Assembly: GCA_937942085.1 (NCBI GenBank)
Contig: CALDGA010000201.1
Location: forward strand, 1-64,000
DNA: 64,000 bases
Direction: 5' to 3'
Origin: an uncultured Flavobacteriales bacterium
Lineage (GTDB): Bacteria > Bacteroidota > Bacteroidia > Flavobacteriales > Schleiferiaceae
A program made the translations under genes and the position numbers. The notes below the pieces were generated by a model. The model was not told the DNA's origin and ran no database searches. It saw only the letters and a list, made by a program, of their open reading frames with translations. Below, in pieces: positions 38,655 to 43,855 of the stretch (position 1 is its first letter; each line of letters starts with the position of its first letter).

Positions 38655-38729
38655 GGGCTATTAGCTCAGTTGGTTTAGAGCGCTGCCTTGACAGGGCAGA
38701 GGTCACTGGTTCGAATCCAGTATAGCCCA
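38655..38729 (+). tRNA. tRNA-Val (GAC anticodon)
   Basis: 75-base cloverleaf: acceptor GGGCTAT/ATAGCCC, D arm GCTC...GAGC, anticodon stem-loop CTGCC-TTGACAG-GGCAG (anticodon GAC), T arm ACTGG-TTCGAAT-CCAGT, discriminator A; CCA not encoded. Confidence 0.95.
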
Positions 38730-38735
38730 CAAAGA

Positions 38736-38770
38736 AAAAGCCGTGCACCGAAAAGGTGCACGGCTTTTTT
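38736..38770 (+). terminator. Terminator after tRNA-Val
   Basis: AGCCGTGCACC (38739-38749), loop GAAAA, GGTGCACGGCT (38755-38765), then six T. Confidence 0.92.
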
Positions 38771-38895
38771 AATGCCGCACCTGTGCTTGCACAAAGGTGC
38801 AGGCATTAAAAAAGACGCAGCGCTGCGGCAGTAGCGCACGGCTTGTCTTTGGGTACAAGGGCGCGTTTTTGGTTCTTTCGCCGTAGGCGAAAAAT
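38771..38895. repeat. Cluster of inverted repeats between tRNA-Val and the SGNH hydrolase gene
   Basis: Successive hairpins: AATGCC...CACCT-GTGC-TT-GCAC-AA-AGGTG...GGCATT (38771-38807), then GCGCT...AGCGC near 38820-38840, and TCGCC-GTA-GGCGA near 38879-38889. GCACGGCTT also recurs from the upstream terminator. No T-runs follow the hairpins and no ORF with coding signal is present. Confidence 0.6.
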
Positions 38896-38910
38896 CCATA
38901 ACTTCTCACA

Positions 38911-41273: not shown

Positions 41274-41292
41274 AGAGATGAAACCAATATTC

Positions 41293-42543
41293 ATGAAGAA
41301 ACTCACCCTGTTTTTATCTGCCCTTTTATCGGTCCAAATCTCTGCGCAGAACATTAGCGGCTGCATCACATCGATGCCGGATTCCATTTCGAATATCAAA
41401 GTGGCATATGTGCGTGGGAAAGGATTGGCAGTTAAGCAGGAGATTCCTGTAAATAACGGCTGTTTCAATGCAGCGTGGGAGCACCCCGAACAAGGGATTT
41501 TCATCGTATATATCGATGGGGGGCACACTTTTGATATGGTCGTATCCAATGGGAACCTGAAGATACAAGGGGACTACAATGCCTTAGAAAATGTCCAATT
41601 ATCTGGTCCGGGTATTGAGGAATTTAATGGGTTTAAGGGCTTATTGAAATCGGACCCGAATGAAGAGCAAATTCGCAATTACCTACTTGCCATTAAGGAC
41701 AATGGACTCCGAGAATTTTTGCTACCACAGATATTGCCATTGAATCCAGATACAAATGTGTACTGGTTGCGCAGTCATTTCTGGGATTACACGAACCTCA
41801 GATCTAAAAGCACCATCATTAATCCGTTCTTCGAAAAGAATAGAAAAATCTATTTCGAGCAAGTATTAGGGCACGATCCGGATACAGTTATTAAGCATTT
41901 AAATACGCTTCTAAATTCTCCTATGGATGATCAGGTTCGTAAGGTGCTCGTCAGTACGGCTACATATCACTATGAGACTTCAAATTATATGGGGGAGGAC
42001 AAGGTGTTTGTTTGGCTGGCTCAAACGTTTTATAATTCCGGCTTTGCCGATTGGATGGACAAAGATGATTTGGCAAAAATCAAGGAGAAATCAGACGGAT
42101 TGAGTACAGAACTCATTGGAAATCCAGCAAGAGATTTTGCCTTCGACACCAAAGACCGTGGCCGCATCAAATTAACAGATGTACAAAGCCCCATCACCAT
42201 CCTGTACTTCTGGGACAGTACTTGTGGGCACTGTAAGAAAGAGACGCCTCGATTGAAGAAATTCTACGAAGAATACAAGGACAAAGGGGTAGAAGTGGTG
42301 GCGATCACATTGGAAAACGAATTCACCTCTTGGAATAAGTACATTGATGAGAATGAGCTTACTTGGATCAACGGCTATGAAAGTGATTTCGAACGCCCGA
42401 ACTTCTTGTGGTATTATTATATCCCAACGACTCCGAAGAAGCTAGTCTTAAATAAAGACAAAAAGATCATCGCCAAGAACCTTGATGTGGAAACTACGCT
42501 CCGCACCTTCATCGACGATTATTTGGCGGGGAAAGTCAAATAA
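41293..42543 (+). CDS. TlpA/ResA-like thiol-disulfide protein, secreted
   Basis: 416 residues. Signal peptide MKKLTLFLSALLSVQISAQ, an N-terminal beta-rich DUF4369-like region (about 20-110), a helical middle, and a C-terminal thioredoxin domain (about 275-412) with FWDSTCGHCKKETPRLKKF (redox pair TCGHC), VEVVAITLENE and YYYIPTTPKKLVLNKDKKI (cis-Pro). Likely a periplasmic thiol oxidoreductase. ATG 41278 would add five residues but would be leaderless from the mapped promoter motif; 41293 starts a textbook signal peptide. Confidence 0.88.
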   Translation: MKKLTLFLSALLSVQISAQNISGCITSMPDSISNIKVAYVRGKGLAVKQEIPVNNGCFNAAWEHPEQGIFIVYIDGGHTFDMVVSNGNLKIQGDYNALENVQLSGPGIEEFNGFKGLLKSDPNEEQIRNYLLAIKDNGLREFLLPQILPLNPDTNVYWLRSHFWDYTNLRSKSTIINPFFEKNRKIYFEQVLGHDPDTVIKHLNTLLNSPMDDQVRKVLVSTATYHYETSNYMGEDKVFVWLAQTFYNSGFADWMDKDDLAKIKEKSDGLSTELIGNPARDFAFDTKDRGRIKLTDVQSPITILYFWDSTCGHCKKETPRLKKFYEEYKDKGVEVVAITLENEFTSWNKYIDENELTWINGYESDFERPNFLWYYYIPTTPKKLVLNKDKKIIAKNLDVETTLRTFIDDYLAGKVK

Positions 42544-42572
42544 AAAAGGCGCCCATTGGGCGCCTTTTTTTT
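42542..42572. terminator. Bidirectional terminator, first copy
   Basis: AAAAAAGGCGCCC, loop ATT, GGGCGCCTTTTTT, between convergent genes. The arms are the same as those of the hairpin at 44283-44311. Confidence 0.9.
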
Positions 42573-42588
42573 ATGGAATGACCTCAAA

Positions 42589-42927
42589 TTATTTTTCCGT
42601 TCCTGCTCCAGCAGGCTTGCTACAACAGCTTTTTTTCTCGCCGGCAGCAGTAGTTTGCTTAGGCTTATCCGCACAAGATGCGCTAGCTGTTGCCTTTTCA
42701 GAGCAGCAAGATTTCTTCTCTACCATGGCAGTTTCTTTATTATCAGAACAAGCTTTGGCTTCGCCAGCTTTCTCAGAACAGCAAGATTTCTTCTCTGCCT
42801 TTGCCATCGCGCCGTGATCGCATTGTTCAGTGCAAACGTGCTTAGATTCTGCGTTTTGTGGCTTCTCTTGGGCGCTAGCAGCTACAGTGAAGGCCAGGAA
42901 GCTTAGGGTAAGAACAAATTTTTTCAT
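42589..42927 (-). CDS. Secreted cysteine-repeat protein, probable metal binder
   Basis: 112 residues, not a family I recognise. Signal peptide (about 1-19, ending ASAQ), then ten Cys among 93 mature residues. An N-terminal HVCTEQCDH (30-38; two Cys flanked by two His) is followed by three copies of EKKSCCS (about 45-51, 70-76, 97-103), the first two each followed by a further Cys nine residues after the pair (60 and 85). Lys/Glu/Ala-rich linkers suggest little globular structure. It may bind soft metals or act as a thiol reservoir; the neighbouring TlpA-like protein and Cys-containing small lipoprotein make a thiol or metal theme plausible. Confidence 0.75.
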   Translation of the reverse strand: MKKFVLTLSFLAFTVAASAQEKPQNAESKHVCTEQCDHGAMAKAEKKSCCSEKAGEAKACSDNKETAMVEKKSCCSEKATASASCADKPKQTTAAGEKKSCCSKPAGAGTEK

Positions 42928-42979
42928 GGGTTTTTGTGTTTTAAGAGCTTGAAGTTAATGAAAACTAGGGGTTAACCCC

Positions 42980-43008
42980 TTGAAAGGTCATAATTGTTCT
43001 TATTTTTG
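42980..43008 (+). promoter_or_regulatory. Promoter of the OmpA-family lipoprotein gene
   Basis: TTG (42980-42982), 18-base spacer, TATTTTTG (43001-43008); ATG 23 bases downstream at 43031. Confidence 0.65.
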
Positions 43009-43030: not shown

Positions 43031-43855
43031 ATGAAAAAGGTACTTGTAATGGCTTTTGCAGCTGCGTTCACGTTGACGAGCTGTGTAAGCAAGCAGAAAT
43101 ACGTTGAGCTTGAAGAATTGCAAAACGCGACTTCTGATAAGTTGAGCAATACTAAAATGGAGTTGGCTGCAATGACCGCAGAACGTAATGCTCAAGCACA
43201 ACAGTTGGCAGAACTTAAGGCAGATAAAAACAACTTGGCAAAACAAGTGGGTGATTTGACTGCAATGAGCGCTACCAACGCTGAGAACATGGAAAAAACA
43301 TTGGAAAGCATCAACGAGAAGGATATGACCATCACTCGTTTGCAAGATGCTGTAACCCGCAAGGACAGCGTTACGTTCGCCCTAGTAAACTCATTGAAAG
43401 GTGCGTTGGGTGATTTGAACGACGAAGATGTTCAGATCAGCGTTGAGAAAGGTGTGGTATATGTGAACTTGAGCGACAAGCTGATGTTCCGTCCAGGTTC
43501 AGCTTACGTTAGCAAGGATGCGAAAGCAGTTCTTGGTAAAGTAGCTAAAATCATGCAAGCCAAACCAACCTTGGAGATCTTGGTAGAAGGTCACACTGAC
43601 ACTGACCCTATCGCTACAGAATGTATTAGCGACAACTGGGAACTAAGTGCTCGTCGTGCGACTAACATCGTTCGCGTATTGCAGAACGACTTTGAAATCG
43701 CTCCAGAGCGTATGACTGCGGCAGGTCGCGGTGAGTACGTTCCAGTAGCAACTAACGAAACTCGTGAAGGTCGCGCTGCGAACCGTCGTACACGTATCGT
43801 TGTATTGCCTAAGTTGGACGAATTCAACAAGTTGATCGAGGAAGGATTGAAATAA
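43031..43855 (+). CDS. OmpA-family lipoprotein with coiled coil
   Basis: 274 residues. Lipoprotein signal TLTSC (Cys about 17), a long coiled coil (about 25-110), then a peptidoglycan-binding OmpA C-terminal domain (about 150-265) with ILVEGHTDTDP, NWELSARRATNIVRVL, MTAAGRGEYVPVA and ANRRTRIVVLPK. Anchors the outer membrane to peptidoglycan. ATG 43031 begins the signal peptide. Followed by its own terminator. Confidence 0.93.
   Translation: MKKVLVMAFAAAFTLTSCVSKQKYVELEELQNATSDKLSNTKMELAAMTAERNAQAQQLAELKADKNNLAKQVGDLTAMSATNAENMEKTLESINEKDMTITRLQDAVTRKDSVTFALVNSLKGALGDLNDEDVQISVEKGVVYVNLSDKLMFRPGSAYVSKDAKAVLGKVAKIMQAKPTLEILVEGHTDTDPIATECISDNWELSARRATNIVRVLQNDFEIAPERMTAAGRGEYVPVATNETREGRAANRRTRIVVLPKLDEFNKLIEEGLK

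Follow-up and report, generated by a model that had tools for sequence, protein, structure and literature searches.

The window, i.e. the whole 64,000-nucleotide stretch of DNA analysed here, carries on its minus strand the gene of a small exported protein with regularly spaced cysteines (Cys-repeat protein). The ORF was found at exactly the position given in the original prediction. It is flanked by the gene of a TlpA-like thioredoxin, which is convergent with it as had been noted, and by a divergently oriented OmpA-family gene. The features of the locus are as follows:

41278..42543, plus strand: TlpA-like thioredoxin with a C-x-x-C motif (CGHC) and a weakly DUF5106-like N-terminal part (Thioredoxin_8, 2.3e-16; AhpC-TSA, 1.3e-15)
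about 42537..42575, no strand assigned: inverted repeat resembling a bidirectional terminator hairpin, between the convergent TlpA-like and Cys-repeat genes
42589..42927, minus strand: gene of the exported Cys-repeat protein; ORF with ATG start, 112 amino acids, 10 Cys, orthologues under selection
42619..42639, minus strand: Cys module 3, EKKSCCS, residues 97-103; truncated, with no downstream C in the window's clade
42673..42720, minus strand: Cys module 2, EKKSCCSEKATASASC, residues 70-85, CC-x9-C; spacing invariant in the 13 typical members including the window's; DNA repeat with module 1
42748..42795, minus strand: Cys module 1, EKKSCCSEKAGEAKAC, residues 45-60, CC-x9-C; spacing fixed in the 13 typical members, the window's among them
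42814..42840, minus strand: head motif HVCTEQCDH (H-x-C-x3-C-x-H), residues 30-38; invariant positions in 11 orthologues
42871..42927, minus strand: signal peptide MKKFVLTLSFLAFTVAASA, read from the sequence; predicted cleavage before QEKPQ (between AASA and Q), no lipobox Cys
43034..43855, plus strand: OmpA-family lipoprotein, divergent neighbour (PF00691, 4.3e-21)

Architecture of the protein and its gene

The secretion that had been predicted agrees with the signal peptide, which from its sequence is of the Sec type and lacks a twin Arg; the residues AQEKP around the predicted cleavage site are invariant across the orthologues. The mature N-terminus reads QEKPQNAESK, followed by HVCTEQCDH and then by three (E)KKSCCS units, the head and repeats being present as described in the original prediction. 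The mature chain is of low complexity, rich in Lys, Glu, Ala and Ser, and the Cys residues occupy positions 32, 36, 49, 50, 60, 74, 75, 85, 101 and 102 of the protein. Ten Cys in the 93 residues of the mature region correspond to 10.8%, far above chance when compared with 0.72% in the long ORFs of the window (binomial tail 1.7e-9 at this background). Two CC-x9-C units arose in 364 of 200,000 composition-preserving shuffles of the mature chain and two or more KKSCC in none of 200,000. The internal duplication proposed from repeats in the DNA was confirmed for units 1 and 2, which contain 38-nt copies (42692-42729 and 42767-42804) that are 84% identical and 75 nt apart, but the third KKSCCS unit was not detected as a DNA repeat at the sensitivity that revealed the first two. 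AlphaFold2 modelling yielded one short low-confidence helix with a mean pLDDT of 42 and a pTM of 0.21, which, from 11 sequences only, is a weak test of disorder. The model is consistent with a chain that has no fold of its own.

Between the gene and that of the TlpA-like protein lies the terminator-like hairpin (42537-42575), and the Cys-repeat gene therefore looks monocistronic. The gene order BCAT, TlpA-like protein, Cys-repeat protein, OmpA lipoprotein is constant at every orthologous locus within the reach of the contigs. The adjacency of the TlpA-like gene is nevertheless weak evidence for a functional link, because the whole surrounding block is equally conserved. A perfect palindrome, AGGGGTTAACCCCT (42967-42980; core GGGGTTAACCCC, 42968-42979), lies in the divergent intergenic region upstream of the gene; it was rejected as an operator since its conservation stops at the nearest clade. 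Neither a metal regulator nor an operator was found for the Cys-repeat gene, and a scan for sigma-70-type promoters, which leaves out the differing promoters of Bacteroidota, gave no match. The immediate gene block contains no metal-resistance gene. A heavy-metal P-type ATPase is encoded in 24 of the 25 genomes of the genus, whether or not they have the Cys-repeat gene, and this co-occurrence was discarded as an uninformative clue to function. Elsewhere in the window, a tRNA-Val(gac) gene lies at 38655-38730 beside short ORFs, one of which (38675-38899, minus strand) overlaps it and is probably spurious.

Selection on the cysteine modules

Pairwise dN/dS values were 0.03-0.13 for most pairs of orthologues and reached 0.30 in some L040-L043 and L047 pairs; the Cys-repeat ORF therefore encodes a real, translated protein, on which purifying selection is strong. 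Conservation of Cys among orthologues, whose absence was to refute the original prediction, was evident: between the window's clade and L040-L043, 40 of 40 Cys cells were kept versus 157 of 332 other residues, and the comparison with L044-L046 gave 27 of 30 and 97 of 249, respectively. Each of the 13 typical members (the window's and L035-L046) has two CC-x9-C motifs; the short L047 and the divergent L018 have none. The nine residues inside the motif vary while its spacing stays fixed. Variation of the repeats between related genomes, which had been proposed as a check, also appeared, as a varying module make-up: in the L040 and L044 clades, one module or both are lengthened from CC-x9-C to CC-x9-C-x2-C, and other clades have an extra C after module 3. 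In the head, H30, C32, E34, C36, D37 and H38 are invariant in the alignment of 11 orthologues; L035, from one MAG, has Tyr at position 36 in place of Cys. Strict conservation is limited to the Cys modules and the HxCxxxCxH head.

The number of Cys residues bears on the possibility that the protein is structured by disulfides, i.e. that paired Cys staple the loose chain of an exported envelope or surface component, the TlpA-like neighbour being its isomerase or reductase. The even number of Cys in the two main intact clades (10 or 12), export to an oxidising space and the thioredoxin-fold gene that always adjoins the Cys-repeat gene would suit this explanation. We consider it unlikely, since some members have 13 Cys and odd ones 9 and 7, adjacent CC pairs are ill-suited to regular disulfides, the chain shows neither a hydrophobic core nor a predicted fold, and the gene neighbourhood is conserved as a unit anyway.

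Distribution and the variable slot

In the sampled genomes, protein and profile searches confined the family to one genus of Schleiferiaceae (aquatic Bacteroidota). The gene is intact in 14 of 25 genomes of this genus, counting the window's (in one, L011/L047, as a shortened form of 93 amino acids); three have a decayed copy and two a divergent form without the head. A profile of the mature region only gave no match in 63 other genomes of the family Schleiferiaceae. In 395 sampled genomes of the phylum, it matched only the window's genome and one further site, which was rejected as spurious because it is antisense to an apparent NuoH-like gene. Scanning about 85,000 species genomes with the sequence pattern returned 14 loci, corresponding to the genomes of the genus already found. 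No family member was found on plasmids or viral contigs. Weak matches outside the genus, which were examined in part, reflected similarity of the signal peptide to DUF1573-like proteins or to exported proteins resembling HMA (heavy-metal-associated) domains, or were other unrelated ORFs; they were lost with the mature-only profile. More remote relatives may lie beyond the reach of these searches because low-complexity chains diverge fast.

The original prediction had recognised no named family, and none came to light: no fitting family was found in Pfam (searched to E<=1) or NCBIfam, and the family's own profile matched no PDB chain sequence. A Pfam match to Ly49 (E 0.01, about half the cut-off) was dismissed as chance. 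Among the papers searched, none connected Schleiferiaceae to cysteine-rich proteins. Judged by its sequences, this is a new, narrowly distributed family outside every known metallothionein family.

Going beyond the original prediction, the gene proved to be dispensable, several members of the genus having a decayed copy or another gene in its place. The reading frames of L014, L016 and L017 are broken by lost starts and/or stops; although the genomes are drafts, every copy carries at least two disabling changes. In G004 (L094) and G015 (L093), the slot between the TlpA-like and OmpA genes is occupied by an unrelated exported protein of about 180 amino acids with several Cys. The L093 protein had no Pfam match, and the OmpA of G015 is 97% identical to the window's. 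This suggests that the slot is a small variable site; it was unreadable in four genomes (G003, G007, G008 and G020), where the contig is cut or OmpA is missing. L039 (6001-6336) is mosaic: the DNA of its signal sequence is 93% identical to L041 versus 54% to the window, whereas its mature region is of the window type (83% DNA identity). The OmpA gene of L039 has a dS of 0.67-0.88 to the L040 group versus 1.78 to the window, so that OmpA and signal sequence both group with the L040 clade. We take this as a sign of recombination that would have joined a signal sequence of the L040 clade to a window-type mature region, with a breakpoint inside the gene. Decay, replacement and the L039 mosaic thus indicate that the gene is selected where present, yet dispensable and exchanged within the genus.

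A possible exported metal chelator

The best explanation appears to be that the Cys-repeat protein is an accessory, exported, metallothionein-like chelator that would bind Cu(I), Zn or Cd; we give this about even chances. In the periplasm, the reduced chain would wrap soft metal ions, the C2H2 head would provide one Zn or Cu(I) site, the CC-x9-C(-x2-C) modules would form thiolate clusters, and the chelator would buffer or trap Cu(I), Zn or Cd. Speculatively, the thiols could be kept reduced by periplasmic thioredoxins, the TlpA-like neighbour among them. The fixed spacing, the invariant His residues of the head, the export, the lack of a predicted fold and the Cys by which the modules of other clades grow to CC-x9-C-x2-C, gaining potential ligands, all favour a metallothionein-like extracytoplasmic chelator, as do the high Cys content, the retention of Cys between clades and the low dN/dS. 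Against it speak the missing metal regulator and operator and the lack of a metal-resistance gene in the immediate block; moreover, conditions outside the cytoplasm are partly oxidising, and the Cys may be joined in disulfides instead. Decayed copies, replacement and the mosaic allele match the dispensability of a habitat-dependent trait, and we propose that a chelator useful only in some habitats would be lost or replaced elsewhere.

The high Cys content, the low-complexity linkers and the TlpA-like neighbour would also agree with a thiol buffer or antioxidant whose Cys are sacrificed to, or recycled after reaction with, peroxide, hypochlorous acid or reactive sulfur and re-reduced by thioredoxin-like proteins. 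This is quite unlikely, as a plain reservoir needs neither the exact CC-x9-C spacing nor the invariant His of the head.

Bacterial metallothioneins (SmtA/BmtA, Pfam Metallothio_Pro; MymT) are likewise small and Cys-rich, have conserved His and are expected to have no metal-free fold. Those known are, to our knowledge, cytoplasmic, without an export signal and without CC-x9-C modules. The Cys-repeat protein is, like them, a small chain rich in conserved Cys (10 of 93 residues; 40 of 40 kept between clades), and no profile or sequence match to SmtA or MymT was obtained in Pfam at E<=1 or among PDB chain sequences. The twin CX9C proteins such as Cox17 have two CX9C motifs in a helical hairpin. 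They have the CC pair and the C-x9-C spacing in common with the Cys-repeat protein, which differs in having one CX9C per module, low-complexity linkers, no helix hairpin and no match in Pfam at E<=1. SmtA itself adopts a zinc-finger fold (structure 1JJD; PMC7558416). The copper storage protein Csp1 is likewise exported and has many Cys, but it combines a Tat signal with a rigid four-helix bundle (PMC7558416), in contrast to the Sec-type signal of the Cys-repeat protein, which lacks a confident helical fold and shows no match to Csp1. Metallothioneins acquire their fold when they bind metal, in contrast to the pre-folded Csp proteins (PMC7558416); given the absence of a predicted fold, this would place our chain on the metallothionein side.

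Sco- and CutF-type copper proteins are also exported and have a CxxxC head, plus His. The CxxxC and His of the Cys-repeat protein match the ligands used by Sco-type Cu chaperones, and CutF, which is of comparable size, also contains CxxxC (PMC7558416). The protein might accordingly be a relay or chaperone for Cu or Zn instead of a store, its head handing one ion to a partner and its repeats serving as docking or loading sites. We regard this as slightly less likely still: there is no Sco-like thioredoxin fold (neither a Pfam match nor a predicted fold), no C-terminal PPR motif as in CutF and no downstream multicopper oxidase gene, the next gene being convergent and behind a terminator. The monocistronic appearance of the gene makes it less likely to regulate a downstream gene in the manner of CutF, and the absence or decay of the gene in relatives also speaks against a relay.

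The family itself is new, and its way of working, most likely metallothionein-like, would be of a familiar kind. More tentatively, and with less than even confidence, these proteins could represent a new lineage-specific family of exported metallothioneins in which a duplicable CC-x9-C(-x2-C) module follows an HxCxxxCxH head. They would be encoded in a fixed chromosomal slot whose alleles are exchanged, lost or replaced depending on exposure to metals. If the protein is merely disulfide-stapled or a thiol buffer, there would be little of note in it. SmtA-type homologues are known from a limited number of genomes (PMC7558416), and exported metallothionein-like proteins of bacteria are little described. 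If the chelator reading is true, the family would provide a clean system for studying how metal preference outside the cytoplasm depends on the spacing of Cys, offering a compact selected module, natural variants that differ in the number of Cys, and close relatives that are natural knock-outs.
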